64,000 nt of DNA from Clostridiales bacterium (lineage in GTDB: Bacteria; Bacillota; Clostridia; Lachnospirales; Lachnospiraceae): the NCBI GenBank assembly GCA_021202925.1, contig JAJQCD010000010.1, positions 252,527 to 316,526 of the forward strand, in the 5' to 3' direction. Positions within the stretch are counted from its first letter, which is position 1. Every line of letters starts with the position of its first letter. The notes beneath the pieces were generated by a model. The model was given only the letters and a program-made list of their open reading frames with translations. It was not told where the DNA came from and did no database searches. Shown piece by piece: positions 1 through 16,944 of this stretch. The position numbers and the translations under genes are program-made.

Positions 1-183
1 GTGTTCGTGTGTCAGAAGCACAAGAGGAGAGTGAATGTTGCGATTTTGCAACAACGGCTTCAGCTGACTGTAATCATTGGGGTCAATAATCAGGCATTTT
101 TCGTTTCGCAGGAATCCGTAACAGTTGCTGTCCGTCACCGGATCGATGATGCGGAAGCTGTCATCATTCCACTGCGATTCCAT
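1..183 (-). CDS. MBL-fold metallo-hydrolase, N-terminal part (runs off left edge)
   Basis: The start codon is at 183 on the minus strand and 61 codons are visible before the window ends. The visible protein has the opening strands of a metallo-beta-lactamase fold, including the segment CLIIDPND, and ends in LLTHEH, which begins the zinc-binding HxHxDH motif. The start overlaps the end of the upstream carrier-protein gene by 20 bp, so the two are probably translationally coupled. Hydrolases of this fold beside carrier proteins often act as thioesterases, but the substrate cannot be told here. Confidence 0.75.
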   Translation of the reverse strand, partial: MESQWNDDSFRIIDPVTDSNCYGFLRNEKCLIIDPNDYSQLKPLLQNRNIHSPLVLLTHEH

Positions 184-403
184 AGCGTCCCAGCACCTCT
201 TTTCCCTTCTCGTAGGAGGTGAAATCAAGGACATCCTGCGTGTCGATGCGGATGTCAAACGCTTCTTCCAGATCGTTCATCAGATCCATATGTCCGATGG
301 AATCCCAGAGCGGGATGCCCTGATACTTCAGTCCCGGCAGCTCCTCGTCGGTTTTCCGGAATGCTCTGCGGAAAATGCTGTTATATTTCTCCAGATTGGT
401 CAT
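164..403 (-). CDS. Acyl carrier protein (stand-alone, divergent)
   Basis: Small acidic protein of 79 residues with the carrier-protein motif WDSIGHMDLM; the Ser near residue 35 is the expected 4'-phosphopantetheine attachment site. ATG at 403 is preferred because AGGCAGG lies 8 bp upstream; the in-frame GTG at 412 abuts that Shine-Dalgarno site. It differs clearly from the housekeeping AcpP at 26.7 kb, so it is probably a pathway-specific carrier. It is third in a minus-strand operon after nfu and the MaoC fusion and overlaps the MBL-fold gene. A role in carrying an acyl intermediate for the neighbouring hydratase or hydrolase is inference. Confidence 0.85.
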   Translation of the reverse strand: MTNLEKYNSIFRRAFRKTDEELPGLKYQGIPLWDSIGHMDLMNDLEEAFDIRIDTQDVLDFTSYEKGKEVLGRYGIAVE

Positions 404-468
404 TGTTGACACCTGCCTTTCGTTTTTTATAAAATATATAAATTAATATCATGGGTCGTCTGTTTTTG

Positions 469-1257
469 TCAGCCCCAGAAATCTTCGGCTTCCGGCAACG
501 GAATGTTCTCCTGTGGATTTTCCACTTCGAACAGAGATTTTGTCATCAGCTGTCTGCATTTGGCGGCTGCTACCATTTCCCCGTCCTGATTGACGCAGAT
601 GCCGGAAAAGGTTCCGATATACTGTTCATTTCCTTCCCGACAGGAGAGAAAACGTACCTTTGCGGTAATGGTATCTCCGTAAAACACCGGTTTCAGGAAG
701 CGAACCTGTTCTTCCACAAATACGGTTCCCTCTCCGGGAAGCTGCATTCCCATTACGCTGGAAATCAGGCTTGCCGCCAGCACACCGTGGACGACCGGAC
801 GGCCGTAAACCGATTGCTTTGTGAATTCTGCGTCCGTGTGAAGACGGCTGCAGTCGCCGGTCAGGGCAGCAAATTTATTCACGTCATCCCGGAAAAAGGT
901 CTTTTTCATCTCGGCCTGCTGCCCAACTCTGAGTATTTTTCGCTCTGACGTATTCGCGGGTTCATTTTTCATCCCGGTATCCGCATCGCTCTTCGCACGT
1001 TCTTCTTCCAGGTATGTCTTTACCTGTACGAAGCTTCGTTCGGTCGGAAGCACGAATAATCGCTTTTCTGCAACGAGTCCGGCCGTGGATGCGCAGGCAC
1101 GCATACAGCCGCAGACAATCAGCCATACATCGCAGGTGTTCCCTTCCGAAGCGCCACGAAATTCGTGTTCCGGAAACTGCTTTTTCAGCAGATCAACCTG
1201 GCGGCCGCGGTTATAGATGGAATTGCAGCCACCGCAATATTTGACTCCGATAACCAT
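469..1257 (-). CDS. MaoC-like (R)-hydratase fused to an N-terminal Cys-rich domain
   Basis: 262 residues with two parts. Residues about 1-90 form a small Cys-rich domain (Cys 8, 11, 42, 49, 51, 55, in patterns CGGC and CGCMRAC), which could bind a metal or Fe-S cluster. Residues about 110-240 are a hot-dog MaoC domain with the hydratase signature LTGDCSRLHTD; Asp135 and His140 match the catalytic pair of (R)-enoyl-CoA hydratases, followed by PVVHG. MaoC proteins of this type are usually about 140 residues, so the N-terminal fusion is unusual. It lies 9 bp after nfu and 65 bp before the carrier-protein start. The predicted reaction is reversible hydration of an enoyl-CoA or enoyl-ACP; the substrate is unknown. 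Confidence 0.8.
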   Translation of the reverse strand: MVIGVKYCGGCNSIYNRGRQVDLLKKQFPEHEFRGASEGNTCDVWLIVCGCMRACASTAGLVAEKRLFVLPTERSFVQVKTYLEEERAKSDADTGMKNEPANTSERKILRVGQQAEMKKTFFRDDVNKFAALTGDCSRLHTDAEFTKQSVYGRPVVHGVLAASLISSVMGMQLPGEGTVFVEEQVRFLKPVFYGDTITAKVRFLSCREGNEQYIGTFSGICVNQDGEMVAAAKCRQLMTKSLFEVENPQENIPLPEAEDFWG

Positions 1258-1266
1258 GTGGCGTCC

Positions 1267-1551
1267 TTACCTTTCGATTTGATGGTTCAGAAGCTTTTTC
1301 GCAAAATCCAGAAGCTCCGGATTGACCTCATTCACCAGCACAACGTCGGTCACTTCCGGAATTTCGCTCATAACGGTCTTCCCGATCAGCTCCTCTGTGG
1401 TCAGTTTGGCAGATGGACATCCCGAACACTGGCCGGTCAGGCGGATTCTTAAGATGCCATCTGTAAAATCTACAATCTGTACATCACCTTCATGGCTTAA
1501 AAGGGAAGGCCGCACCTTCTCCTCGATCACTTTTTCGATTTTTCCTAACAT
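1267..1551 (-). CDS. NifU C-terminal (Nfu-type) Fe-S scaffold protein
   Basis: 94-residue protein made almost wholly of the NifU C-terminal domain, with the cluster-binding CSGC motif at residues 42-45 (GQCSGCPSA). Nfu proteins carry and deliver [4Fe-4S] clusters. It is first in a minus-strand operon with the Cys-rich/MaoC fusion, which suggests that it loads a cluster onto that Cys-rich domain or onto nearby Fe-S enzymes such as the 4-hydroxybutyryl-CoA dehydratase (inference). A Shine-Dalgarno GGGAG lies just upstream of the ATG. A sigma-54-type promoter lies 74 bp upstream. Confidence 0.88.
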   Translation of the reverse strand: MLGKIEKVIEEKVRPSLLSHEGDVQIVDFTDGILRIRLTGQCSGCPSAKLTTEELIGKTVMSEIPEVTDVVLVNEVNPELLDFAKKLLNHQIER

Positions 1552-1624
1552 TTGTTACTCCCTTCCGCATGGTGGATTGACTCAAACTCTTATTTTCAAT
1601 CGTTTCGTATTTATTATAGCATAA

Positions 1625-1640
1625 AGCAATTTTTATGCCA
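1625..1640 (-). promoter_or_regulatory. Sigma-54 (-24/-12) promoter of the nfu operon
   Basis: Read on the minus strand the sequence is TGGCATAAAAATTGCT, matching TGGCAY-N5-TTGCW exactly in bases and spacing. It lies 74 bp upstream of the nfu start. A sigma-A-like alternative overlaps it (CTGGCA-N17-TATAAT, with the -10 at 1613-1618), so either or both could be used. Confidence 0.6.
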
Positions 1641-1728
1641 GATATAATTGCACGATGATTTTGGGCTCGTCTGCTTTCTGAATTTCAGGGAAGAAAATCG
1701 AATTTGGCGGGCAGAGTCAGAACCAATA

Positions 1729-1742
1729 TTGCAAAAACGCAA
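1729..1742. promoter_or_regulatory. Candidate activator site, inverted repeat TTGC-N6-GCAA
   Basis: TTGCAAAAACGCAA is a short dyad placed about 90 bp upstream of the minus-strand -24 element, a usual distance for a sigma-54 enhancer. A further CGCAA half site follows at 1768-1772, and a related TTGCG...CGCTAA arrangement occurs at 1833-1847. Confidence 0.3.
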
Positions 1743-1825
1743 CACAAGGACAAAAATGTTTTATTTTCGCAACAAGACGACCCCGGGTTTTCAACATTTG
1801 TAACAAAAAACAGAAGAGTCAGCCA

Positions 1826-1854
1826 GCTTACATTGCGATTTCGCTAAAATTTTG
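1826..1854 (+). promoter_or_regulatory. Candidate sigma-54 enhancer site, copy A
   Basis: Contains GCTTAC, seven bases, TTTCGCTAA, one base, ATTT, then YG. The same words with the same spacing occur at 7239-7267, also upstream of a sigma-54 promoter. This copy lies about 79 bp before the -24 element at 1933. It is the best candidate for the binding site of the activator at 11975. Confidence 0.5.
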
Positions 1855-1932
1855 AAATAAAATGGAGTACGTAACGAAAAGAAATAAGGGTTCTGTCTGC
1901 ATTTGCAAAGAGTTGACGGGCAGGTGTCGATT

Positions 1933-1948
1933 TGGCACAAAGATTGCT
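1933..1948 (+). promoter_or_regulatory. Sigma-54 (-24/-12) promoter of the first permease operon
   Basis: TGGCACAAAGATTGCT matches the sigma-54 consensus with correct GG-GC spacing and lies 57 bp before the permease start. The 1552-2004 interval holds no gene; it carries this divergent promoter pair and the candidate activator sites. Confidence 0.75.
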
Positions 1949-2004
1949 ATTATAAATATTGTATAAATAAAATTAAAAAAATATAAGGAGGGAAGTGACG
2001 TACT

Positions 2005-3486
2005 ATGAGTGAAAACCCAAAAAACACGCAGGTCACATTGGAGAAGCCAGAAGGCTTCAATGAGGGAAAGTTTCCCCTGATGAAGAGGGAACTGGGAGGT
2101 GTGCAGCCGTACATCCCGCTGGGGCCGTTTCATCTTCGTATTCCGTTAATCCATCACAGATGGTCATGGACAGAATGCGCAGCTGCCATGTTCCTTGGCG
2201 TTGCCTGTCTGGGCGCAGGTACAGCTACCACGATGTCCACATTCGGACTGGACGAAGCGGCAAACATTGCCGCACTCGGACTGACAGAGAACGGAGCGTT
2301 CCTGATGAGCCTGACGTTCGGTATTCTGAATGCAATCTGCTATTATCTGCCGTCTCTTCTGGGCGATCCGGTGGTTCCCGGATGGATTACCCCGGCTCTT
2401 CCGCTGACCCTGAATTACCTGAGCGCATGGGCGCTTCCGGATTATGCGGCGGGAAATGTCGATCGAATCTATGCCATGATTGCCCTGCAAATGATGGTCG
2501 CGCTGTTCTTCCTGGTCATGGGAGCAACCGGTATCGGACGTGCGCTGGTCAACATCGTTCCAAACGCGATCAAGGCGGGAATTGTTCTTGGCGCCGGTGT
2601 GACGGCGGCTATCAATGTGTTTTCCGCGCGTATGCCCGCTGCACCGATCACGGTCTGCATCGCGGTGCTGATGTCATATTTCTTCCTGTTCAATCCGACG
2701 TTCGCGCGTGCGGCTAAGAAGAATAAATGGATGAACCTGATCAGAAACCAGGGGGTTGTCCCGGCACAGGTCTTTGCAATCGTGCTGGCTCCGTTCCTGA
2801 TCCGTGAGATTGCGGTTCCACAGATTCAGTGGGGTATCACACCGTTTTCCATCGGTTTTGTGTTGGAGCACTTTACGATTTTTGGACTGGGGCTTCCGGC
2901 GGCGTCCTTCTATGTGAGCGCCATTCCGATGGCATTTACGGTGTACATCATTGCCTTCTCTGATTTTGTCCTGGCGAAAGAGCTGGTCAACGAAGCGACG
3001 GCGGTTCGCCCGGATGAAACGGTTATCTTTGACGCGGGACGTTCGAATCTGGTGAGCTTCCTGAGAAATGGCATCATGTCTGTCTTTGCTCCGTGGGTTC
3101 CCATGTGCGGACCGCTGTGGGCGTCCGGACTTCTGACCATTACTGAGCGTTATAAGAGGGGATATTCGACCATGAACAGCTATTGGGACGGTGTCTGTAC
3201 GTTCCGTGCCGCTACGGTTATCGCGGTTCTGATTCTTCCTCTGGTTACACTGATTCGCCCGGCATTCGCCATTTTCTTCGGTATTACGATGGGTGTTCAG
3301 GCGTTTGCCTGCGGCAATGTCGGCATGAGAATGTGTACGACAGCCAACGAGCGTGGTATTGCGTGTGTCATGGCGGGCGCTCTGGCTTATTACACGCCAG
3401 GCTGGGCTCTGCTGATCGGTATTGTCGTGTGGGCCGTAGTCGAGGGAAGCGAGCTGTTCCTGGGAAGTAAGGAAGCAGCAGCATAA
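2005..3486 (+). CDS. Polytopic permease, paralogue of the one at 10.4 kb
   Basis: 493 residues with about a dozen hydrophobic segments. It shares with the protein at 10423 an N-terminal block (QPYIP...RIP..H.RW), the motif LLGDPVVPGWITPA, IPNAIKAGI, and a late YIIAF.DFV segment. Overall shape and the PNAIKAGI-type segment weakly recall NCS2/SLC23 nucleobase permeases, but the classic NCS2 motifs are not evident, so family membership is tentative. A sigma-54 promoter lies directly upstream and the paralogue sits beside the 4-hydroxybutyrate genes, so uptake or exchange of a small carboxylate such as 4-hydroxybutyrate is plausible; this is inference. A hairpin separates it from the FeoA-domain gene. 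Confidence 0.75.
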   Translation: MSENPKNTQVTLEKPEGFNEGKFPLMKRELGGVQPYIPLGPFHLRIPLIHHRWSWTECAAAMFLGVACLGAGTATTMSTFGLDEAANIAALGLTENGAFLMSLTFGILNAICYYLPSLLGDPVVPGWITPALPLTLNYLSAWALPDYAAGNVDRIYAMIALQMMVALFFLVMGATGIGRALVNIVPNAIKAGIVLGAGVTAAINVFSARMPAAPITVCIAVLMSYFFLFNPTFARAAKKNKWMNLIRNQGVVPAQVFAIVLAPFLIREIAVPQIQWGITPFSIGFVLEHFTIFGLGLPAASFYVSAIPMAFTVYIIAFSDFVLAKELVNEATAVRPDETVIFDAGRSNLVSFLRNGIMSVFAPWVPMCGPLWASGLLTITERYKRGYSTMNSYWDGVCTFRAATVIAVLILPLVTLIRPAFAIFFGITMGVQAFACGNVGMRMCTTANERGIACVMAGALAYYTPGWALLIGIVVWAVVEGSELFLGSKEAAA

Positions 3487-3513
3487 GAAAAAGCAAGAGA
3501 AAGTAAGGGAAAC

Positions 3514-3550
3514 GGCGGGCGCCGGATGGTTTGAAAGACTGGTGCCCGCC
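3514..3550 (+). terminator. Intercistronic hairpin after the permease
   Basis: GGCGGGCGCC pairs with GGTGCCCGCC (one G-U pair) around a 17-base loop. No T-run follows, so it may stabilise the upstream message or attenuate rather than stop transcription. Confidence 0.45.
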
Positions 3551-3586
3551 AACATGTTTGTCTGAACAGACGGGAAAGATGGCCGC

Positions 3587-3949
3587 ATGAAAACATTAAA
3601 AGATATTGCAGTTGGAACGACGGTAACCGTCCGGAAGGTAAGCGGCGGCAGAGAAGTCAGAAAAAAGCTGGAACGCATGGGGATTATGGCCGGAAGTGAC
3701 CTGACTGTACTGGAGACAGGAGCGGACGGTACGCAGACAGTGTCTGGCCTGCGGGGACAACTGCGACTGGACGCGCAGGAATCCGCTTTCATTGGCGTGG
3801 GAGAACATTTTGTGCGCAGAGATGAGCCGGTGCTGCTGGGCGGATGCTGTGCTTATGGAGATACGACGGAGATGCTCAGAAGAATGGAAGCAGTTTACGC
3901 GGAAAAGGAAAAGAAGACGGAGAGTTCCGGAAATCAGCAGAAAGGATGA
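3587..3949 (+). CDS. FeoA/SH3-like domain protein
   Basis: 120 residues. Residues about 1-75 match the FeoA core (LKDIAVG...VRKV.GG...RKKLERMGI..GS.LTVLE), the small SH3-like fold found with the ferrous-iron transporter FeoB and at the C-terminus of DtxR-type regulators. The rest is a charged tail ending in Lys/Glu-rich sequence. No feoB is nearby; instead it follows a permease and precedes a three-helix membrane protein, so it may be an accessory protein of that permease (inference). The start ATG follows GGAAAGATGGCCGC with a modest Shine-Dalgarno match. Confidence 0.7.
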   Translation: MKTLKDIAVGTTVTVRKVSGGREVRKKLERMGIMAGSDLTVLETGADGTQTVSGLRGQLRLDAQESAFIGVGEHFVRRDEPVLLGGCCAYGDTTEMLRRMEAVYAEKEKKTESSGNQQKG

Positions 3950-3955
3950 CAGAAC

Positions 3956-4252
3956 GTGGGTGAGTTTTTCTGGTATGCAACAGTAGTTTTTCTCGTGATT
4001 GTCGTGACGGCTATGGTGGTCAGTCTGATTCAGGTCAGCCGCACCGGGCGGGCGTCGGTCTGGCTTAACCGGATCCTTTATCTGGCCGGAATTGCGGCAG
4101 CATTGATGAATTTCATCCGTATGCTTTTAGTCTATGAAACGTACAAAGGAACAATGGCGTTTGCCAGTGTCATTGTGATTGTTTCTCTGGTGGTCGGCCT
4201 GATCCGGTCAGAACAGAAGGAAGAAACGGACGGAGAGGAGAGTCACAGTTAA
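3956..4252 (+). CDS. Small membrane protein, three predicted helices
   Basis: 98 residues starting at GTG 3956, seven bases after the FeoA-domain gene, so co-transcribed. Hydrophobic segments lie near residues 5-27, 38-58 and 66-84, followed by an acidic tail. I do not recognise the family. The position suggests a partner of the permease and FeoA-domain protein. It ends 2 bp from the convergent gene that follows. Confidence 0.65.
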   Translation: MGEFFWYATVVFLVIVVTAMVVSLIQVSRTGRASVWLNRILYLAGIAAALMNFIRMLLVYETYKGTMAFASVIVIVSLVVGLIRSEQKEETDGEESHS

Positions 4253-4254
4253 TC

Positions 4255-4959
4255 TTACATGCCGCCGCCCCATCCGTGTGCCCGTTCAGCCGCGTTTTCT
4301 GTGGCGTTTTCAGCGTCTCCGGAAGCTTCGCTTCCTCCGGGAGTCCCGTCGGAACCGGCAGGAGCAGATGTGCTCTGGAGTTCGGCCAGAAGCTCGGCCA
4401 GTTCTTCTGGTGAGAGGGAGGAACGCAGCTTTTCAACTGTGGAGTGCAGGTCTTTCCTGGTGCCGCGGGCGGCCGCCATGGCCCACTGTGCATCCTGCTT
4501 CTGGACTTTTTCGCGCAGGCGTCTTGCGTATTCCCGGTCATCGATCCGTGGCGCTACCGGAATTCCGGCTGTTACGCCGACCAGAACCAGAACGAGTTTC
4601 AGTCCCACGAAGCCACCGCCGGAACTCTCATAAGTGGCGTGAAAACCGGTCAGATAGCCGGTCAGAAACAGGCGATAGTTTACTATGGTAAAGATCGCAT
4701 AGACGACAAAAAGCAGGAGCGCAACGCCGCAACCGATTGTGCCGCCCCAGCCCCGGGGACGGATCAGGCAAATGCAGATGCCGATTGCCAGGAGCAGACA
4801 GAAAACCATCTCGATGTAATAGGGCATGGGAAGGGAACCGAAGTTTCCGGTAAAGAGGATATTGCGCAAAAGCCAGGCCTGTCCGATGATGACAGCGAGA
4901 AAGCAGATGATGGCGACACCCCCGCGGGCTGTCCGGTTGTCTGCGCTGTTTCTTTCCAT
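4255..4959 (-). CDS. Hypothetical membrane protein, four predicted helices
   Basis: 234 residues. Hydrophobic segments lie near 14-32, 47-66, 73-96 and 115-135, followed by a charged region and a low-complexity Gly/Ala/Glu/Ser tail. The ATG at 4959 is preceded by a perfect AAAGGAGG, and a good minus-strand promoter lies at 4996-5024, which supports a real gene. The family was not recognised. It is monocistronic and convergent with the permease operon. Confidence 0.7.
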   Translation of the reverse strand: MERNSADNRTARGGVAIICFLAVIIGQAWLLRNILFTGNFGSLPMPYYIEMVFCLLLAIGICICLIRPRGWGGTIGCGVALLLFVVYAIFTIVNYRLFLTGYLTGFHATYESSGGGFVGLKLVLVLVGVTAGIPVAPRIDDREYARRLREKVQKQDAQWAMAAARGTRKDLHSTVEKLRSSLSPEELAELLAELQSTSAPAGSDGTPGGSEASGDAENATENAAERAHGWGGGM

Positions 4960-4995
4960 ATGGTACCTCCTTTACAAACCCTGTGCATTGTCCTC

Positions 4996-5024
4996 AGTAT
5001 ATCATTCTTTTTCCGGAGCGTCAA
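4996..5024 (-). promoter_or_regulatory. Sigma-A promoter of the four-helix membrane protein
   Basis: On the minus strand: TTGACG, 17 bases, TATACT, ending about 37 bp before the start codon. Confidence 0.65.
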
Positions 5025-5058
5025 TGAACAAAGCGCCGAGTGAAAAATGACCGGCGGG

Positions 5059-5087
5059 TTGCTTTTTCGTGAAGGGTTTTGTATAAT
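5059..5087 (+). promoter_or_regulatory. Sigma-A promoter of the 5136 gene
   Basis: TTGCTT, 17 bases, TATAAT. Because the -10 box is at 5082-5087, translation cannot begin at the upstream in-frame TTG at 5079; this decides the start in favour of 5136. Confidence 0.75.
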
Positions 5088-5135
5088 CAGGACAGATGTA
5101 TGAATGTGGTGCGGAGAGAAAGGAGAAGTGGAATT

Positions 5136-5774
5136 TTGTCTGATTTGTTGTCAGGGATCAATCCTGTCCATGTGGCTTACGCGGTTATGGTTGTCGGAGT
5201 TATGCTTTGCTTTCTGTTTTCCGGGAAGCACAAGAGAGAGTTGCGTCTCGCTGCCGATCACTTTGCCATCCCCTTCGTGAAGCTGTCCAATTATATTTCT
5301 CCGGGAGCAACCATGAACGGCATTGCTGTGGATCGTCCGGGCGGAGACCGGATATGCGGCCTACCGCTGGAAAAGCAGCCGGGCAGTATCCGGGCCATTA
5401 TGAAGCGGGCGAACGAGGAAATTCCGGTTCAGCTGTTTGCGGAAATGGTGGACGCCGCCAATGAAATGGAGCGTCTGACCGGGCGCAGTAAAACGGAGCG
5501 GGAGCAGTTTGGCGATCCGATTCAGGAATTGCTGCTGATGACGCATACTTTCCTGACCGGATGTGAGAATCCGAAGAACATTGATTCGCCGGAGAAGAAG
5601 AAACGGTTTGACAGTTTCCTTCAGAATCAGCTTGCTCACCGCATGGTATTGCTGAAACGAATCAGCGGCGGTATGTCGGCGGAATTTCAGGCGCTGAATC
5701 AGGCGTATGAGGATGAGATGGAGAAGCTGGAACTGGAAGAGATGGAACAGCGCAGAAGCAGAGTGAAAAGGTAA
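5136..5774 (+). CDS. Hypothetical protein with one N-terminal membrane helix
   Basis: 212 residues if translation starts at TTG 5136, which has AGGAG about 10 bp upstream. One hydrophobic segment near residues 11-29 is followed by a soluble, mainly helical domain and a Glu/Arg-rich C-terminus (likely coiled coil). I do not recognise the family. It precedes the 4-hydroxybutyrate dehydrogenase gene, separated by a dispersed 121-bp repeat, and could be transcribed with it. Confidence 0.65.
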   Translation: MSDLLSGINPVHVAYAVMVVGVMLCFLFSGKHKRELRLAADHFAIPFVKLSNYISPGATMNGIAVDRPGGDRICGLPLEKQPGSIRAIMKRANEEIPVQLFAEMVDAANEMERLTGRSKTEREQFGDPIQELLLMTHTFLTGCENPKNIDSPEKKKRFDSFLQNQLAHRMVLLKRISGGMSAEFQALNQAYEDEMEKLELEEMEQRRSRVKR

Positions 5775-5782
5775 ATGCAGTT

Positions 5783-5903
5783 TACCATGAAAGTCCAAGA
5801 ATCCAAGCCGTCAGGCGCAGGATGATTGGCAACTTTCATGTATGCAGCGACGCTTAGCGAAGTCAAGCCGCAGGCGTAGACTAAGCTTAGCATAGCTGTT
5901 TAC
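5783..5903. repeat. 121-bp dispersed repeat, copy 1
   Basis: Begins TACCATGAAAGTCC and ends AGCTGTTTAC. By direct comparison it matches 48814-48934 at 117 of 121 positions with no gaps. It can fold: CATGAAAGT near the 5' end pairs with ACTTTCATG, and GCTTAG pairs with CTAAGC further on; AAGCCG...GGCG occurs twice inside. It fills the gap between the 5136 gene and 4hbD. Confidence 0.85.
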
Positions 5904-5942
5904 TAAAATTTTTAAATATGTTTAAAGGAGGAAGATTGAATC

Positions 5943-7058
5943 ATGAAAGAAGTTATTTTGATTCCGCAGATTTCTTATTTTGAGACATGTGCAGAATTCG
6001 CGAAGGAGTTTCAGCTCGGGAGTGACGACCTGATTCTGACCAATGAGTACATCTTCAACCCGTATTTTGGGGATATGAATCTGGATGTCCATACCATTTT
6101 CCAGGAGAAATACGGCGCCGGGGAACCCACGGATATCATGGTGGACGCGATTCTTGAAGAAGCAGCGAAAACCGGTTGCAAACGGATCATCGCCATCGGT
6201 GGCGGTACTGTGATTGACATTGCAAAGGTCATGGCGGTGTCAGCGGGCGATCCGCTGGATTCCCTGTATGCGGCTCCGGAACAGATTCAGAAGAAACGCC
6301 AGCTGGTGATTCTTCCCACAACCTGCGGAACCGGCAGTGAGGTGACGAATATTTCCATTATTAACCGGACCAGACTTGGCACCAAGGTCGGACTGGTATC
6401 GCCGCATATGTATGCGGATGATGCCGTGCTGATTCCGGAGCTTTTAAAGAGTCTTCCGTTTGGCGTGTTTGCGACCAGTTCCATTGACGCGCTGGTTCAC
6501 GCGGTCGAGTCCAGCCTTTCTCCGAAGGCGACGCCATATACGAAGCTGTTCGGGCACAAGGCGATTGAGATGATCATCGCCGGTTTCCAGAAGATTGCGG
6601 CGGAAGGAAAGGAAGCGCGGATTCCGTTAATGAAGGATTTCCTGATTGCCAGCAACTATGCGGGAATTGCTTTCGGAACTGCCGGCTGTGCGGCTGTTCA
6701 TGCCATGGCTTATCCGCTGGGAGGAACCTATCATGTGGCTCATGGCGAGAGCAATTATGCGATGTTCACTGCCGTGCTGAAAAATTATATGGAAATCAAA
6801 CAGGATGGCGAGATTGCGCTTCTGAATCAGAAGCTTGCCGGCCTGCTTGGCTGCGATGTGGCGGAAGTCTATGATAAGCTGGATGAACTTCTTGGCGCTC
6901 TGATTCCGAAGAAAGCGCTGCATGAATATGGCATGAAAGAGGAAGAACTGGAGATTTTTACGAAGAGCGTAATGGAGCAGCAGGGTCGACTGATGGCGAA
7001 TAATTTTGTCCCGCTGGATGCCGCCCGTGTCCTTAAGATCTATACCGAGTGCTTTTAA
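5943..7058 (+). CDS. 4hbD: 4-hydroxybutyrate dehydrogenase (iron-containing ADH family)
   Basis: Interconverts succinate semialdehyde and 4-hydroxybutyrate with NAD(H). The 371-residue protein is a full-length group III alcohol dehydrogenase: GGGTVIDIAK and TTCGTGSEVTN form the nucleotide-binding half, and IDALVHAVES plus AVHAMAYPLGG and HVAHGE supply the Asp and His metal ligands. It resembles, as I recall that sequence, the Clostridium kluyveri 4-hydroxybutyrate dehydrogenase along its length. The ATG follows AAAGGAGG. It is followed by a strong terminator, so it is transcribed apart from the dehydratase and CoA-transferase genes that continue the pathway. Confidence 0.9.
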   Translation: MKEVILIPQISYFETCAEFAKEFQLGSDDLILTNEYIFNPYFGDMNLDVHTIFQEKYGAGEPTDIMVDAILEEAAKTGCKRIIAIGGGTVIDIAKVMAVSAGDPLDSLYAAPEQIQKKRQLVILPTTCGTGSEVTNISIINRTRLGTKVGLVSPHMYADDAVLIPELLKSLPFGVFATSSIDALVHAVESSLSPKATPYTKLFGHKAIEMIIAGFQKIAAEGKEARIPLMKDFLIASNYAGIAFGTAGCAAVHAMAYPLGGTYHVAHGESNYAMFTAVLKNYMEIKQDGEIALLNQKLAGLLGCDVAEVYDKLDELLGALIPKKALHEYGMKEEELEIFTKSVMEQQGRLMANNFVPLDAARVLKIYTECF

Positions 7059-7089
7059 GTGAACCTTACTGTATTCTGATTAATGTTTG

Positions 7090-7140
7090 AGGGTGAATGA
7101 ATCCCATAGCCGTATGGCTGCGGGATTCATTCACCCTTGT
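7090..7140 (+). terminator. Strong terminator after 4hbD
   Basis: AGGGTGAATGAATCCC pairs perfectly with GGGATTCATTCACCCT (16 bp), then TGTTTC. The rest of the 7059-7437 gap carries the enhancer motif and sigma-54 promoter. Confidence 0.8.
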
Positions 7141-7238
7141 TTCATTTTTGAATCAGATCATCTTATTGTTCCATTTATGCAACGCATTTTAACAGGTTTT
7201 TGGTGAGAAAGTGACAAAAAAGTCGTGAGTTAGCAGCT

Positions 7239-7267
7239 GCTTACTGTTTAGTTTCGCTAATATTTCG
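7239..7267 (+). promoter_or_regulatory. Candidate sigma-54 enhancer site, copy B
   Basis: Same words and spacing as the site at 1826-1854: GCTTAC, seven bases, TTTCGCTAA, one base, ATTT, then YG. It lies about 100 bp before the -24 element at 7368. A further TTCGTTAA follows immediately. Confidence 0.5.
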
Positions 7268-7367
7268 TTAAAAGAATGGAGACAGAATCTTCTTTTTTAA
7301 GGATTTTCAAGGATTCTGCCGGATGATTTTTCCGGTTAAAAAAATAAAAGCATGGAAATCAAAAACC

Positions 7368-7383
7368 TGGCATAAGAATTGCT
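7368..7383 (+). promoter_or_regulatory. Sigma-54 (-24/-12) promoter of abfD-abfT
   Basis: TGGCATAAGAATTGCT matches the consensus with exact spacing and lies 55 bp upstream of the dehydratase start. Confidence 0.75.
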
Positions 7384-7437
7384 GTTAATAAATAGCAGGC
7401 AACAAAAATCAAAACAAGAAAGGAAGGATTTAAAGCA

Positions 7438-8886
7438 ATGTTAATGACAGGAGAAGAGTACGTTGAGAGCATGAGGAAGTTGAATATTCAGGTTTATATG
7501 TTCGGAAAGAAGGTCGAGAATCCGGTGGATGACCCGATCCTTCGTCCGTCCCTCAATTCCGTAAAGGCTACATATGACCTGGCTCAGATGCCGGAATATG
7601 AGGATCTGATGACCACCACCTCATCCCTCACGGGAGAGAAGATCAACCGCTTCTGCCACATTCATCAGAGCACATCTGACCTGATCAAGAAGGTAAAGAT
7701 GCAGCGTCTGTGCGGACAGAACACCGCAGCTTGCTTCCAGCGTTGCGTAGGTATGGACGCGTTCAACGCGGTTTACAGCACCACCTATGACACTGACAAG
7801 AAGTATGGCACCCATTATCATGAGAACTTCAAGAAGTTCCTTCAGTATGTGCAGGAAAAGGATCTGACCGTTGACGGTGCAATGACCGACCCGAAGGGCG
7901 ATCGTTCCAGAGCTCCGCATCTGCAGGAGGATCCGGATCTGTATCTGAGAGTCGTTGAGAGAAGAGAAGATGGTATCGTTGTCCGTGGTGCAAAAGCGCA
8001 TCAGACTGGTTTCATCAACTCTCACGAAGTCATCGTCATGCCGACCCAGGCCATGGGCGAGGATGATAAGGATTACGCAGTTTCCTTCGCAATTCCGACG
8101 GATGCCAAGGGCATTTTCCTGATCGTTGGCCGTCAGTCCTGCGATACCAGAAAGCTGGAAGGCAGCGAGATCGATGTCGGTAACTCTCAGTTTGGCGGTA
8201 CCGAGGCTCTGGTTATCTTTGATGATGTATTTGTACCGAATGACCGTATCTTCCTGAACGGCGAGAATGAGTTCGCTGGTGTTCTGGTTGAGCGTTTCGC
8301 CGGTTATCACAGACAGTCCTACGGCGGATGTAAGGTTGGTGTGGGCGACGTCCTGATTGGTGCTGCCGCTACGATCGCAGATTACAACGGTGCTGCAAAG
8401 GCTTCCCATATTAAGGATAAGCTGATCGAGATGACACATCTGAATGAGACCCTGTATTGCTGTGGTATCGCATGCTCCGCAGAAGGTACTCCGACCGAGT
8501 CCGGCAACTATCTGATCGACCTGCTTCTTGCTAACGTATGTAAGCAGAATGTAACCAGATTCCCGTATGAGATTGCTCGTCTGGCAGAAGATATCGCCGG
8601 TGGCCTGATGGTTACCGCTCCGTCTGAGAAGGATCTGAAGGATCCGTTCCTGGGCAAGTATGTGGATAAGTATTTCCGCGGCGTGAACACTGTTTCTACC
8701 GAGAACAGACTGCGCATGATGCGTCTGATCGAGAACCTGACTCTTGGCACCGCAGCTGTTGGCTATCGTACCGAGTCCATGCATGGCGCCGGTTCACCGC
8801 AGGCTCAGAGAATCATGATTTCCCGCCAGGGCAATATCGCAATGAAGAAGAAACTCGCAAAGAAGATTGCAAAGATCGAAGAGTAA
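7438..8886 (+). CDS. abfD: 4-hydroxybutyryl-CoA dehydratase / vinylacetyl-CoA isomerase
   Basis: Dehydrates 4-hydroxybutyryl-CoA to crotonyl-CoA with a [4Fe-4S] cluster and FAD by a ketyl-radical mechanism; oxygen-sensitive. The 482-residue protein has the cluster ligands: Cys99 and Cys103 in AACFQRCVGMDAFN, and His and Cys near 291 and 298 in HRQSYGGC, matching the arrangement known for the Clostridium aminobutyricum enzyme (Cys99, Cys103, His292, Cys299). MTDPKGDR and GAKAHQTG are also typical. The ATG at 7438 follows AAGGAAGG; the ATG at 7444 is a less likely alternative. A sigma-54 promoter drives it together with the downstream CoA-transferase. Confidence 0.96.
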   Translation: MLMTGEEYVESMRKLNIQVYMFGKKVENPVDDPILRPSLNSVKATYDLAQMPEYEDLMTTTSSLTGEKINRFCHIHQSTSDLIKKVKMQRLCGQNTAACFQRCVGMDAFNAVYSTTYDTDKKYGTHYHENFKKFLQYVQEKDLTVDGAMTDPKGDRSRAPHLQEDPDLYLRVVERREDGIVVRGAKAHQTGFINSHEVIVMPTQAMGEDDKDYAVSFAIPTDAKGIFLIVGRQSCDTRKLEGSEIDVGNSQFGGTEALVIFDDVFVPNDRIFLNGENEFAGVLVERFAGYHRQSYGGCKVGVGDVLIGAAATIADYNGAAKASHIKDKLIEMTHLNETLYCCGIACSAEGTPTESGNYLIDLLLANVCKQNVTRFPYEIARLAEDIAGGLMVTAPSEKDLKDPFLGKYVDKYFRGVNTVSTENRLRMMRLIENLTLGTAAVGYRTESMHGAGSPQAQRIMISRQGNIAMKKKLAKKIAKIEE

Positions 8887-8902
8887 TTTTGATGAAGCAG
8901 TT

Positions 8903-8926
8903 CGGGACGGCAGATGTGTCGTCCCG
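8903..8926 (+). other. Intercistronic hairpin between abfD and abfT
   Basis: CGGGACG pairs with CGTCCCG around a 10-base loop, with no T-run, so it is probably an mRNA-stability or processing element. Confidence 0.4.
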
Positions 8927-8956
8927 GACGACTGAAACTGAAAATGGAGGAATTCA

Positions 8957-10267
8957 ATGAGCTGGCAAGATGATTATCAAAGCAAATTAATGTCCGCTGA
9001 CAAGGCGCTTGACTATCTGAAGTCCGGTGAGCGTCTTGTCATCGCTCATGCCTGCGGCGAGCCGTCTTATCTGGTTGATACGATGGTGGAGAAGGCAGAG
9101 CAGTATGAGAATGTGGAAATCGTCCACATGGTAGCAATGGGCAAATGTGCCTATGCACAGCCCGGGATGGAAAAGCATTTCCGCCACAATGCCCTTTTTG
9201 TAGGCGGCGGTACCAGAAAAGCGGTTCAGGAAGGACGCGGCGACTATACACCCTGCTTCTTCTATCGGATTCCCGCTCTCTTTACCAATGGAAGCCTTCC
9301 GATTGACGTAGCGATGGTTCAGACGACGCCGCCGGATGAGAATGGAAATATGTGCCTGGGAATTTCAGTCGACTATACTCTTCCGGCAGCAAAAGCCGCG
9401 AAGAAGGTCATTGTCCAGGTGAACAAGGAAGTTCCGAGAACGGGCGGCAACAGCTGCATCAATGTATCGGATGCAAACATTGTTGCAATTGTGGAACATG
9501 ACGCTCCGCTGATCGAGCTGCCTCTGCCGAAGATCGGTGAGGTCGAGAAGGCGATTGGCGCAAACTGCGCGAAGCTGATCAATGATGGCGACACCTTGCA
9601 GCTTGGAATCGGTGCGATTCCGGATGCAGTACTTCTGTTCCTGAAAGAGAAGAAGGATCTGGGCATTCATTCGGAGATGTTCTCGGATGGTGTGGTTGAA
9701 CTGGCAGAAGCCGGCGTCATCACCAATGCGAAGAAGACCACGCACAAGGGCAAATATGTGGCGAACTTCCTGATGGGCAGCAAGCGTCTGTATGATTTTG
9801 TAAACAACAATCCAGATGTGGAAATGTATCCGGTTGATTATGTCAATCATCCGATCGTGATCGGAAAGGAAGACAATATTGTTTCCATCAATTCCTGCGT
9901 ACAGATCGACCTGATGGGCCAGGCGGCGTCGGAATCCATCGGTTACACCCAGATCTCCGGCGTCGGCGGACAGGTTGACTTCATCCGTGGCGCGGCGTTC
10001 GCGAAGAACGGTCGTGCGATTCTGGCTTTCCCGTCCACGGCTGCCAAGGGTAAAGTATCCAAGATTGTTCCGCTTCTTGATGAGGGCGCGGCAGTTTCGA
10101 CTTCGAGAAATGATGTGGACTATGCGGTTACCGAATATGGTATTGCGAAGCTGTCCGGAAAGACTCTGAAGGAGCGCGCACGTGCGTTGATTGAGATCGC
10201 ACATCCGGATTTCCGCGATGGTCTGAAGAAGGTATATGAGGAGCGTTTCCATTGCTCATATGAGTAA
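8957..10267 (+). CDS. abfT: 4-hydroxybutyrate CoA-transferase
   Basis: Moves CoA from acetyl-CoA or butyryl-CoA to 4-hydroxybutyrate, making the dehydratase substrate. The 436-residue protein is a full-length family I CoA-transferase of the 4-hydroxybutyrate/Cat2 type; the Glu in HSEMFSDGVVEL is the expected catalytic residue that forms the glutamyl-CoA thioester, and GVGGQVDFIRGA is the conserved C-terminal glycine-rich segment. It lies 70 bp after abfD, with GGAGG before the ATG, and shares its promoter. 4-Hydroxybutyrate is the likeliest substrate given the neighbours, though other hydroxyacids are possible for the family. Confidence 0.93.
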   Translation: MSWQDDYQSKLMSADKALDYLKSGERLVIAHACGEPSYLVDTMVEKAEQYENVEIVHMVAMGKCAYAQPGMEKHFRHNALFVGGGTRKAVQEGRGDYTPCFFYRIPALFTNGSLPIDVAMVQTTPPDENGNMCLGISVDYTLPAAKAAKKVIVQVNKEVPRTGGNSCINVSDANIVAIVEHDAPLIELPLPKIGEVEKAIGANCAKLINDGDTLQLGIGAIPDAVLLFLKEKKDLGIHSEMFSDGVVELAEAGVITNAKKTTHKGKYVANFLMGSKRLYDFVNNNPDVEMYPVDYVNHPIVIGKEDNIVSINSCVQIDLMGQAASESIGYTQISGVGGQVDFIRGAAFAKNGRAILAFPSTAAKGKVSKIVPLLDEGAAVSTSRNDVDYAVTEYGIAKLSGKTLKERARALIEIAHPDFRDGLKKVYEERFHCSYE

Positions 10268-10320
10268 ACGAAATTGAATCACATGCCCGGGTATGCGCTG
10301 AAATTGCCACAGATGGTGGC

Positions 10321-10356
10321 GAACTGCGGAGGGAATGATATATCCGCGGTTCTTTT
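10321..10356 (+). terminator. Possible partial terminator after abfT
   Basis: GAACTGCGGA pairs with TCCGCGGTTC (one G-U) and is followed by TTTT. A small GCCAC/GTGGC hairpin lies just upstream. It may reduce read-through into the permease. Confidence 0.5.
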
Positions 10357-10422
10357 CCAGTTGTGTGAAGCAGGTGCGTACCCTTACATAGGAATGAATA
10401 ACCTAAAAGGAGATAAAACAGT

Positions 10423-11787
10423 ATGGCTATGAAAAGAAAAGAAGGCGGAGAGCAGCCGTATATTCCGGCTGGTATATTTAAAATCCGTATTCCTTTTATC
10501 CACTATAGATGGGAGATTTCCGAGTGCCTGCAGGCAATCCTGATGTGTGCGACCTGCCTCGGCGCGATTCCTGTACTGGAGGAAGTGTTTGGTGTACCGT
10601 ACGAAGTCGCATGGAGTATGGTTATCATCAACGGTTTCTTTTACAATATGCATTCTTTGCTGGGCGACCCGGTCGTACCAGGCTGGATTACACCGGCCAT
10701 GCCGCTGGTTACCGCATTTGTCACCCTGACGGAGCAGGGACCGGCGCGTGTACAGAGCATGATCGCTCTGCAGCTGCTGATTGGTATCATTTTCCTGTTC
10801 ATGGGTATTACCGGTCTGGCAAGCAAGCTGATCGGTGCGATCCCGAATGCAATCAAGGCTGGTATTCTGATTGGTGCCGGCGTATCCGCTGTATCGACTG
10901 AATTTGGAGCGACTGGTCGTGCGACTCTGTATCCGAAGACCGTGCTCATCGGTTCGGTGGTTGCGTATTTCCTGCTTTTTTCCGTGCTGTTTAAGAGAAT
11001 GAAGCACAAGAGTAAGCTGTGGTACATGGTTGGTAACTTTGGTATGCTTCCTGCAATCATCGTTGCCGTGATTATCGGACCGCTCTCCGGTGAACTTCCG
11101 GCTCCGCCGCTTGTCCTTGGTTCCATCTTCAAGATTCCGGAGTTTGGCAAGATTATGAGCACCCTGAGTCCGTTCTGCATCGGTTTCCCGAGTGTGAGCC
11201 AGTTTATCGCCGCGATTCCGACCGCGATTGCTGTCTATATCATCGCATTCGGCGATTTCGTATCCAGTGTTGAGATGATCAATACCGCGGATGAGATTCG
11301 TAGCGATGAAAAGATCGATATGAACGCAAACCGTTCCAACCTTTGCTGTGCGATCCGTAACATCGTTCAGGCTCTGATCTGCCCGTATCCGCCGCTGTGT
11401 GGACCGCTCTGGGCAGCTGTTACCGCAGCAGTTGCTGAGCGTTACAAAGATGGCAGAAAGTCCATGGACTCCATCTTCTCTGGTGTTGGAACTTTCCGTT
11501 GGATGACTTTCATCTGCGTGGCTCTGGTGCCGGTTGCATCCTTTGTACAGCCGATTCTTCCGGCAGCGCTTTCCTGTACGCTGATTGTTCAGGGATTTGT
11601 CTGCGCACAGATCGGTATCGGCATGGTACATGACAGTGCAGAATTTGGTCTGGCCGGCGTGATGGCAGCCGTTCTTGCTACCAAGGGCGCAGCCTGGGGT
11701 CTGGCAGTTGGTATCGTTCTGTACCTCCTGGTATTCGGAAACTTCAAGAATCCGGAGACCGTAAAGGAAGTTGCCAAAGAGGCATAA
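10423..11787 (+). CDS. Polytopic permease, paralogue of the one at 2.0 kb
   Basis: 454 residues, about a dozen membrane segments, sharing with the 2005 protein the N-terminal QPYIP...RIP..H.RW block, LLGDPVVPGWITPA, IPNAIKAGI and an IIAFGDFV segment. It is shorter at the N-terminus (about 25 residues less). It follows abfD-abfT with no separate promoter that I can see and precedes the sigma-54 activator. Being last in a 4-hydroxybutyrate operon, it likely imports the pathway substrate or exports a product; the family (NCS2-like or other) and substrate are unproven. AAAGGAG lies upstream of the ATG. Confidence 0.75.
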   Translation: MAMKRKEGGEQPYIPAGIFKIRIPFIHYRWEISECLQAILMCATCLGAIPVLEEVFGVPYEVAWSMVIINGFFYNMHSLLGDPVVPGWITPAMPLVTAFVTLTEQGPARVQSMIALQLLIGIIFLFMGITGLASKLIGAIPNAIKAGILIGAGVSAVSTEFGATGRATLYPKTVLIGSVVAYFLLFSVLFKRMKHKSKLWYMVGNFGMLPAIIVAVIIGPLSGELPAPPLVLGSIFKIPEFGKIMSTLSPFCIGFPSVSQFIAAIPTAIAVYIIAFGDFVSSVEMINTADEIRSDEKIDMNANRSNLCCAIRNIVQALICPYPPLCGPLWAAVTAAVAERYKDGRKSMDSIFSGVGTFRWMTFICVALVPVASFVQPILPAALSCTLIVQGFVCAQIGIGMVHDSAEFGLAGVMAAVLATKGAAWGLAVGIVLYLLVFGNFKNPETVKEVAKEA

Positions 11788-11822
11788 CTGCAATTTGCAA
11801 TACCCTCCTATATATTTTGACA

Positions 11823-11858
11823 GACAGCAGACGTTTACTCACGCCTGCTGTCATTTTC
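11823..11858 (+). terminator. Terminator after the second permease
   Basis: GACAGCAG pairs with CTGCTGTC around a 14-base loop, followed by ATTTTCTT. Confidence 0.65.
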
Positions 11859-11892
11859 TTCCTGTAATGGGAGAGGAATCTTTTTTCTCGCA

Positions 11893-11921
11893 TTGAATCT
11901 TTTTTTTCTAAGTGATATAAT
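11893..11921 (+). promoter_or_regulatory. Sigma-A promoter of the sigma-54 activator gene
   Basis: TTGAAT, 17 bases, TATAAT with an extended -10 (TG one base upstream). The activator is thus made from its own housekeeping promoter. Confidence 0.7.
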
Positions 11922-11974
11922 GATCGGATACAGTAGATGATGTTTATATTCAGAGAAATTGAAGGTGACGTTTT

Positions 11975-13408
11975 ATGGCAGGCAGAAAGAAGATGAACGG
12001 GGCTCTCAGCAGCGATTATCTGGATGCGATCATCGAACATTCCTTCGATGGCATATACATAACGGACGGACAGGCGAATACCATCAAAGTGAACCGATCG
12101 TATCTGACCATTTCCGGTCTGAAGGAATCTGAAGTGGTCGGTCATAACATGAAGGAGCTGGTAGACAATAAGACCATTTCCGCTTCCGGTACACTTCCGG
12201 CACTGGAACGGAAACGTCCGGTTACGATTCAGCAGGTATTTAAGACAGGGAAACGTGCACTGATTACGAGTAGCCCGATCATGAACAGCAAAGGCGAGAT
12301 CGTCCTGGTGATCACCAATGTCCGTGATATTACGGAACTGTATCATTTACAGGAAGAGACGACTCACCTGCGCCATGAGGAGAAGAAGCTGCGTGAGGAA
12401 CTGCGCCATGCGCAGACGAATGTCCAGGAGCAGGGAGATCTGATCGCGGTTGATCCGAAGACAGTCAATATCCTCTCCATGCTGGATAAAGTTGCGCCGT
12501 TAGATACCACGGTGATCTTCCTGGGGGAAACCGGTGTTGGAAAAGAGGTTTTCGCCAAATATATTTATGAGAACAGCGCCCGCAGCGGCAAGCCTTTTAT
12601 TAAAGTGAATTGTGGCGCGATTCCGGAAAATCTCGTGGAGAGCGAGTTGTTTGGCTATGAGAAGGGCGCCTTTACCGGTGCGGATAAAAATGGCCGCATG
12701 GACGTCTTCGAAGCGGCGAATACCGGAACGATCTTTCTGGATGAGGTGGGCGAACTGCCGCTCAACATACAGGTGAAGCTCCTGCGTGTGCTGCAGGAAC
12801 AGGAATTTGAGCGAATTGGCAGCCGGAAACCGGTAAAGGTCGATGTGCGTGTTCTGGCGGCGACGAATCGAAACCTGGAAGAGATGATCGCGAACGGTCA
12901 GTTCCGCCAGGATCTGTATTATCGCCTGATGATTTTCCCAATCCGGATTCCACCGTTGCGCGAACGGCTGTCCGATATCGTTCCCCTGGCTCAGCTGTTT
13001 CTGTCACAGCTGAACAAGAAGTACAGCATGAAAAAATCATTTTCGCCATTATCGATTTCTGTTATGCGAAGTTATAACTGGCCTGGTAATATCCGTGAAC
13101 TACGCAACATTGTGGAGCGTGCGGTCATTGTCAGCAACGGAGACGAGATCACACCGGAAGCCCTTCATCTTTATCCGATTACAGAGCGGGCGGACGCAGA
13201 AACACATCTGCTGCCTCCGGTCAATGATTTGAAGAGCACCCTGCAGGCATTGGAGCTGGAATATATCAACCATGCTTATGATACGTTCGGGAATGTCCGC
13301 GAGGCGGCAGCCAGTCTCGGCATGACGCCGTCTACCTTTGTGCGGAAACGCCAGCGGTTTCAGGGAGAATCCATGCAGGAAGATGATACCGGAGATCCGG
13401 ACTTTTAA
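11975..13408 (+). CDS. PAS-domain sigma-54-dependent transcriptional activator
   Basis: Enhancer-binding protein of 477 residues: PAS sensor about 12-120, a short coiled linker about 122-155, AAA+ domain with Walker A GETGVGKE (184-191), GAFTGA (231-236, the sigma-54 contact loop) and Walker B GTIFLDEV (251-258), arginine-rich PPLRERLSDI, then a Fis-type helix-turn-helix about 437-463. There is no receiver domain, so it is probably controlled by a ligand or redox state at the PAS domain. It lies directly downstream of the 4-hydroxybutyrate operon, and three sigma-54 promoters lie within 10 kb, making that operon, the first permease and the nfu operon its likely targets (inference). Confidence 0.95.
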   Translation: MAGRKKMNGALSSDYLDAIIEHSFDGIYITDGQANTIKVNRSYLTISGLKESEVVGHNMKELVDNKTISASGTLPALERKRPVTIQQVFKTGKRALITSSPIMNSKGEIVLVITNVRDITELYHLQEETTHLRHEEKKLREELRHAQTNVQEQGDLIAVDPKTVNILSMLDKVAPLDTTVIFLGETGVGKEVFAKYIYENSARSGKPFIKVNCGAIPENLVESELFGYEKGAFTGADKNGRMDVFEAANTGTIFLDEVGELPLNIQVKLLRVLQEQEFERIGSRKPVKVDVRVLAATNRNLEEMIANGQFRQDLYYRLMIFPIRIPPLRERLSDIVPLAQLFLSQLNKKYSMKKSFSPLSISVMRSYNWPGNIRELRNIVERAVIVSNGDEITPEALHLYPITERADAETHLLPPVNDLKSTLQALELEYINHAYDTFGNVREAAASLGMTPSTFVRKRQRFQGESMQEDDTGDPDF

Positions 13409-13469: not shown

Positions 13470-13614
13470 TTGCGGTCTGATGGTGGAAACCAAAGGTTGT
13501 CGGTTCTGCAAATGTTTTTTGCTTTTGCTATTTTCCCCTGAAATTTATAATAGAACCAGAGGTAATGAAGGAACTACTGTTACTTATTTTTTACAATCAG
13601 GAGGAAAAATCAGT

Positions 13615-16864: not shown

Positions 16865-16944
16865 CTGTATCCCTTCCTTATGCCTTATCAAGCGTTATTT
16901 TCTAATCCTTATCATAGCAGAGATGATGAAATTTGTCATCCGGT

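Follow-up and report, generated by a model that had tools for sequence, protein, structure and literature searches.

Predicted sigma-54 control of a 4-hydroxybutyrate gene set by a neighbouring XanR-like activator in a Lachnospiraceae genome

Which sigma factor and which activator serve the genes of 4-hydroxybutyrate metabolism is the question raised by a stretch of 64,000 nucleotides from a Clostridiales bacterium of the Lachnospiraceae (assembly GCA_021202925.1, contig JAJQCD010000010.1, positions 252,527 to 316,526 of the forward strand), hereafter the window, to which all coordinates refer unless a locus is named. Its first 13,408 nucleotides carry abfD and abfT, for a 4-hydroxybutyryl-CoA dehydratase and a 4-hydroxybutyrate CoA-transferase, two paralogous permeases, an operon that begins with nfu, and a gene for an enhancer-binding protein (EBP), and an earlier note on this DNA had proposed a sigma-54 regulon built around 4-hydroxybutyrate. 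The best reading of the data is that these genes are controlled by sigma-54 and the neighbouring EBP as a XanR-like regulon, to which we would give a probability of roughly 0.86. The sites, the enhancer-like pairs, the gene identities, and the co-occurrence and co-loss with rpoN are computational results, and the regulon is supported because rpoN is present, the sites are conserved and lost together with rpoN, and enhancer-like pairs are shared between the promoters; the novelty attached to the proposal did not survive, as discussed below.

Exact matches to the -24/-12 consensus TGGCAY-N5-TTGCW occur three times in the window against 0.19 expected, and three matches were reached in none of 100 shuffles. 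The first (1625..1640, minus strand, TGGCATAAAAATTGCT) is the predicted promoter of nfu-maoC-acp-MBL-luxE-luxC-ligase-crt, the second (1933..1948, plus strand, TGGCACAAAGATTGCT) that of permease 1, and the third (7368..7383, plus strand, TGGCATAAGAATTGCT) that of abfD-abfT-permease 2. These are the coordinates at which the earlier note had placed its three sites, 50-75 bp ahead of gene starts, and the measured distances to the ATG are 73 bp for nfu, 56 bp for permease 1, and 54 bp for abfD. Genome-wide there are 10 perfect sites versus 1 for the reversed control, distributed as three at the window EBP locus, three at the locus of a second EBP on contig C33, and four within open reading frames (ORFs). 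One of the C33 sites also falls within a mechanical ORF, which by our reading begins too far upstream, the true start being later; with the remaining four inside ORFs, the sites in promoter position thus split evenly between both activators. A chance origin of the three window sites is unlikely, given the excess over expectation and this genomic distribution. The earlier note had made its proposal hinge on rpoN being in the genome, and one full-length gene of 469 aa with AID, CBD, and DBD domains is found in the assembly (3.17 Mb, 39 contigs). The EBP itself (11975..13408, plus strand; PF00158, 1.8e-68) has the PAS-AAA+-Fis architecture first described for it, with a PAS domain, a helix-turn-helix (HTH), and an intact GAFTGA loop; the only strong EBP outside the window is that on C33, the five further matches being weak at 32 bits or less. 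A contig search returned four relatives of the window EBP, one close (91%, L052) and the others at 45-46%.

If these sites are promoters of a regulon, they would be expected to accompany the activator and the sigma factor in related genomes. AbfD was sought at E 1e-100 or better in 250 genomes of the family and at 1e-180 in 391 genomes of the class, with 20 genomes positive in each, the window's own included in both; within the genus, 3 of 24 genomes carry it. The comparative tables cover 41 abfD loci, that is, 40 loci of relatives plus the window, and use a slightly relaxed pattern, TGG[CT]A[CT]-N5-TTGC[ATG]; the match in G522, and G006 (L147) and G018 (L146), stand outside them. EBP-linked loci are those in which tblastn matched the window EBP at 37-75% identity (100% for the window itself), and some of the proteins so labelled are probably not orthologues. 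A site within 300 bp upstream of abfD is present at 14 of the 18 EBP-linked loci versus 3 of the 23 loci lacking an EBP homologue (Fisher 7e-5). The four EBP-linked exceptions are L082 (G093), in whose genome rpoN was not found; L139, where the abfD start is missing and which is counted here as lacking a site; L136, with a one-mismatch site before abfD; and L125, where a site precedes the MBL-fold gene immediately ahead of abfD. rpoN was found in 27 of the 39 genomes searched, and in the corresponding table of 40 loci, which leaves out L139, a site precedes abfD at none of the 12 loci in rpoN-less genomes versus 17 of the 28 in rpoN-bearing ones (p 3e-4). G093 couples the losses: there is no rpoN match and no site, and the EBP homologue adjacent to abfD (L082 7892-9271) is without the GAFTGA region while keeping the HTH and an alignable PAS part, such that it could possibly act as a sigma-54-independent regulator. 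The conservation for which the earlier note had suggested a scan extends to single promoters, as the perfect site before abfD lies at the same place in the sister genome G018 (EBP 91%, abfD 98%), nfu of G087, G060, and G209 also has a site upstream (TGGTAT in G209), and in G006 a site precedes a crotonase match that lies some 2.4 kb ahead of abfD. On a tree of 40 AbfD proteins, the one analysis from which L096, with half an abfD, was excluded, the site label is clustered (7 of 500 shuffles as low). In four genomes of family f56 (G631, G563, G405, and G492), the arrangement is acp-ligase-luxE-luxC, EBP, and abfD-nfu-(hyp)-abfT-permease. A site precedes abfD in each of these and acp in three of them, the acp of G405 lying beyond the stretch read; their EBPs are 50-56% identical to that of the window.

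A regulon under one activator might also be expected to share upstream elements. In G087 (AbfD 91%, EBP 75%), a perfect site precedes each of the divergent genes nfu and abfD, and the sequence GTTGCATTTNTGCAAC stands twice, without mismatch, between the two genes. Sequences resembling this repeat are found in pairs at both regulatory regions of the window. Between the divergent nfu and permease 1 promoters there is an activator-like site at 1728..1743 (minus strand, two mismatches) and, 30 bp from it, a second at 1758..1773 (plus strand, three mismatches); before abfD they stand at 7139..7154 (plus strand, three mismatches) and, 29 bp on, at 7168..7183 (plus strand, one mismatch), the last being the best match in the genome and located 184 bp before the abfD -24/-12 site. 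At two mismatches or fewer the genome holds six matches versus three for a control, and four of the six are within this 13 kb. With up to three mismatches and a spacing of 25-33 bp, the two pairs 1728/1758 and 7139/7168 are the only tandem pairs in the window, and none arose in five shuffled windows or in 1000 shuffles of either regulatory region. Enhancer sites of sigma-54 promoters typically lie about 100-250 bp upstream, and the pairs stand 87 bp from the nfu site, 159 bp from that of permease 1, and 184 bp from that of abfD, for a motif picked post hoc. The region of the 7168 copy aligns with the double repeat of G087 (0 of 500 shuffles as good), and G018 has both the tandem pair and the site before abfD. 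A further similarity joins a block at 1800..1867 (plus strand) to one at 7211..7281 (plus strand; AGTYAGC...TTTCGCTAAWATTT), with a local alignment score of 23 that was reached by 1 of 1000 shuffles. The centre of the latter block is kept in G018, both blocks lie nearer to the permease 1 and abfD promoters than the tandem pairs do, and they are a possible further regulator site.

These data allow a model to be drawn. The EBP would probably be made from a sigma-70-type promoter, for which a consensus scan offers a candidate at 11893..11921 (plus strand; TTGAAT-17-TATAAT with TG), in a region where that scan found 19 matches versus 14.2 expected. Its PAS domain would sense a signal, probably some small molecule belonging to the pathway, and the protein would bind tandem inverted-repeat enhancers of the type GTTGCA-N4-TGCAAC, at the pair between the nfu and permease 1 promoters and at the pair before abfD. 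DNA looping, together with ATP hydrolysis by the EBP, would then open sigma-54 polymerase at the three -24/-12 sites. The NAT-type permeases thereby produced would import a substrate, AbfT would attach CoA to 4-hydroxybutyrate, and AbfD would dehydrate the product to crotonyl-CoA, with Nfu probably serving the [4Fe-4S] cluster of AbfD. An acyl-reduction set of acyl carrier protein (ACP), ligase, LuxE, and LuxC would be made alongside MaoC and a crotonase.

The gene products bear upon this model and upon how much of it concerns 4-hydroxybutyrate. AbfD (7438..8886, plus strand) has its best structural match in 1u8v (E 1.4e-242), presumably the enzyme of Clostridium aminobutyricum, and all four Fe-S ligand positions of 1u8v, which we take to be C99, C103, H292, and C299, are conserved in the alignment; its best NCBIfam match, an HpaB-family aromatic hydroxylase, is below cut-off, and that identity was rejected since 1u8v is far closer and the ligands are kept. 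AbfT (8957..10267, plus strand) matches 3eh7, 3gk7, and 3d3u at E 1.9e-142 or better. Permease 2 (10423..11787, plus strand) has the NAT/SLC23 fold in a structural model (pTM 0.81) that resembles 7tak, PurT, at TM 0.88 and 41% identity, PurT being, we assume, a nucleobase transporter; permease 1 (2005..3486, plus strand) is its paralogue at 40% identity in alignment, and neither was matched above cut-off in Pfam. On the minus strand, nfu (1267..1551) encodes an Fe-S protein with a NifU-like domain (PF01106, 7.4e-23), and is followed by a MaoC-type hydratase (469..1257; PF01575 at residues 116-211) with an extra N-terminal part beginning YCGGCN. Taken by itself, this part has matches in short stretches located between nfu and abfT elsewhere, and may be the hyp product of the XanR operon fused to MaoC. 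Next come an ACP-like protein (164..412; PF00550, E 0.0017, at 19.0 bits just below the 20.8 cut-off) and the first 61 codons of an MBL-fold hydrolase (1..183), the rest of which is beyond the window. The earlier note had given the operon as nfu/MaoC/ACP/MBL; past the window edge, where that note had no view, it continues with luxE, luxC, and the genes of an AMP-forming ligase and a crotonase, the LuxC being the sole match to its family in the genome. Conceivably, the regulon includes the abfD and nfu promoters while permease 1 or the lux part handles an unrelated substrate, 4-hydroxybutyrate being only one of several processes under the activator. The likeness of permease 2 to PurT would suit such a division, as would the fact that a literature search joining LuxE with 4-hydroxybutyryl-CoA dehydratase gave nothing relevant. 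However, abfD, nfu, abfT, permease, ligase, luxE, and luxC occur together in single stretches in G110, G631, G563, G405, and G492 (with acp among them in all but G405, whose stretch is cut), and we regard the division as possible but doubtful.

Several observations weigh against sigma-54 control by the neighbouring EBP. The nfu site overlaps a sigma-70-like CTGGCA-17-TATAAT with TG, and the permease 1 site overlaps TTGGCA-17-AATATT. Three of the 17 loci with a site show no EBP homologue in the stretch read, although in two of these (G627 and G592) EBPs are found elsewhere in the genome, the third being G613; conversely, the rpoN-bearing G267 and G110 have an nfu-linked abfD without a recognizable site. 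There was no rpoN match in G018, an assembly of 250 contigs with the EBP at a contig end, where a gap is possible. The site label requires nine changes on the AbfD tree, and so marks neither one clade nor one simple inheritance. Two of the four locus matches to the G087 repeat (37 and 9482) are intragenic and possibly due to chance, and both the motif for the enhancers and their spacing of 25-33 bp were chosen after viewing alignments, such that the counts are not blind tests. A scan for perfect 6-4-6 palindromes across species yielded no common enhancer, and such a palindrome was rejected as a general element, as two are present in G087 and a similar one in G110. Finally, in the part of a study of C. 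difficile biofilms available to us, AbfD was lower where proteins of the SigL regulon were higher (PMC8225356), from which it follows that not every abfD is under sigma-54. The overlapping hexamers in particular could mean that a housekeeping sigma factor transcribes these genes and that the TGGCA/TTGC matches are incidental. This is very unlikely, as three exact sites stand against 0.19 expected, G018 keeps its site though the aligned intergenic DNA is just 68% identical, and the site is absent at the 12 loci of rpoN-less genomes. That the three sites are real sigma-54 promoters served mainly by the C33 EBP, of PrpR_N type, is scarcely credible, for although the genome has two strong EBPs and such proteins are able to act at a distance, the C33 EBP is accompanied by three other perfect sites, none of the six genomic enhancer-motif matches at two mismatches or fewer lies on C33, 14 of the 17 abfD sites elsewhere accompany a homologue of the window EBP nearby, and that homologue is the only strong EBP in four genomes (if at modest identity in two).

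Sigma-54 control of this pathway has been predicted before, contrary to the earlier note, which knew of no described control of that kind. In Clostridium, XanR is a predicted sigma-54 EBP with targets abfD-nifU-hyp-ach-golB and acp-caiC-luxEC, and its regulon was assigned to butyrate/butanol synthesis; the gel shifts in the portion of that paper available to us addressed other promoters (Nie et al., 2019; PMC6615313). A 2025 survey, in its available part, further describes COG2368, the group to which 4-hydroxybutyryl-CoA dehydratase belongs, as being under sigma-54 control chiefly in Clostridia (PMC12316311). No experiment on these promoters was recognized in the literature, most of it represented by less than the full text, and the terms "abfD" and "hydroxybut" returned nothing in the main text of a report on C. 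difficile transcription start sites and the SigL regulon (PMC7438776) or of one on an rpoN mutant (PMC12069270). The likeness to XanR is one of target gene sets: a sigma-54 EBP is joined to much the same genes, here and in relatives, with -24/-12 sites. Thus abfD, nfu, and abfT are the counterparts of abfD, nifU, and ach under sigma-54 sites, and the set acp-caiC-luxEC corresponds to the ACP-like gene (below the Pfam cut-off), the AMP-binding ligase, LuxE, and LuxC in one operon. The f56 genomes have a gene order close to the published list, whereas in the window's genome the genes are divided between abfD-abfT-permease and nfu-maoC-acp-MBL-luxE-luxC-ligase-crt, a further permease forms a unit of its own, and golB was not identified. 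Set against the genes of 4-hydroxybutyrate/GABA fermentation (1u8v), the AbfD here is closely homologous and keeps the Fe-S ligand positions, and AbfT matches structures of 4-hydroxybutyrate CoA-transferases, but the regulon also takes in Nfu, NAT-type permeases, and LuxE/LuxC, and an iron-dependent alcohol dehydrogenase (Fe-ADH) gene stands apart from its sigma-54 units. In Bacillus thuringiensis, GabR, as described in the accessible part of its report, is likewise a PAS-AAA+-HTH EBP acting with sigma-54 on a C4 pathway and responsive to GABA or succinic semialdehyde, but its target is the gab cluster (gabT) (PMC4279683). What is new is this member of the regulon, its enhancer-like pairs, and the genomes that have no EBP but the abfD-linked one or that carry rpoN next to abfD.

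Those genomes suggest that sigma-54 may in places be nearly dedicated to this locus. Among 17 genomes searched, the sole strong EBP (E 1e-25 or better) is that of the abfD locus in G432, G357, G488, and G106, being 41% identical to the window EBP in G488 and 39% in G106; G267 also has one EBP, but away from the abfD locus. The distance between rpoN and abfD is from 292 bp to 8.0 kb in G488, G627, G432, and G357, the four loci concerned being L126, L127, L137, and L129, and at least four such cases in 27 genomes have a rough binomial probability of 6e-5, which assumes genomes of 2.5 Mb and independence, G432 and G357 belonging to one genus. In these two, an acylating aldehyde dehydrogenase stands between rpoN and abfD, which we read as SucD-like, the enzyme being below all NCBIfam cut-offs, and neither luxE nor luxC was matched within the 20 kb read. 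In the window's genome, where LuxE and LuxC are present, the SucD-like enzyme of G432 has no match at E 1e-60. It may thus be imagined that part of the Clostridia keeps sigma-54 and a single activator for one route, in which ACP, ligase, LuxE, and LuxC would reduce a carboxylic acid (e.g., succinate) to an aldehyde that becomes 4-hydroxybutyrate, replacing the CoA-dependent SucD step, before AbfT and AbfD lead to crotonyl-CoA; we consider this unlikely as a whole. The search for SucD comprised an ORF listing of seven loci and a protein search of 33 genomes, and a SucD active-site motif returned nothing from 15 loci. Against the replacement, G525 has both the SucD-like enzyme and LuxE/LuxC, and several regulon genomes have neither in the stretches read. 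That LuxE/LuxC may plainly substitute for SucD in supplying succinic semialdehyde fits the window's genome, but the two show no clean anticorrelation.

Some neighbouring features complete the locus. The Fe-ADH gene upstream of abfD (5943-7058) lacks an exact -24/-12 site, and a strong hairpin (-39.7 kcal/mol, z -9.2) comes after its end; abfD thus probably starts a separate transcription unit. Between permease 1 and Fe-ADH (3587-5774) lie a FeoA-domain gene and short ORFs at 3956-4252, 4255-4959, and 5079-5774, the three ORFs having no Pfam match above cut-off; the same gene order is found in G018 (L146). Directly after the EBP gene is a fumarate reductase-like flavoprotein with FMN_bind and FAD_binding_2 domains (13480-15768), and beyond it, on the opposite strand, a LysR regulator (15917-16891). 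The C33 locus (L020 7899-18102) combines its PrpR_N-type EBP (GAFSGA) with prpF-type genes, an aconitase-family gene, an SDF symporter, and its three perfect sites, and perhaps serves tricarboxylate-type catabolism.

The available data thus turn a one-line prediction of XanR into a regulon that is well supported by computation in further families, and provide, in the enhancer pair, a concrete element for testing. They also reveal an evolutionary tie to rpoN, as one genome lacks rpoN, the promoter, and the GAFTGA loop of the activator together. Genomes with no strong EBP other than the abfD-linked activator offer a clean setting for studying how a sigma factor is retained for a single pathway, and the pathway of this regulon feeds crotonyl-CoA, a precursor of butyrate.

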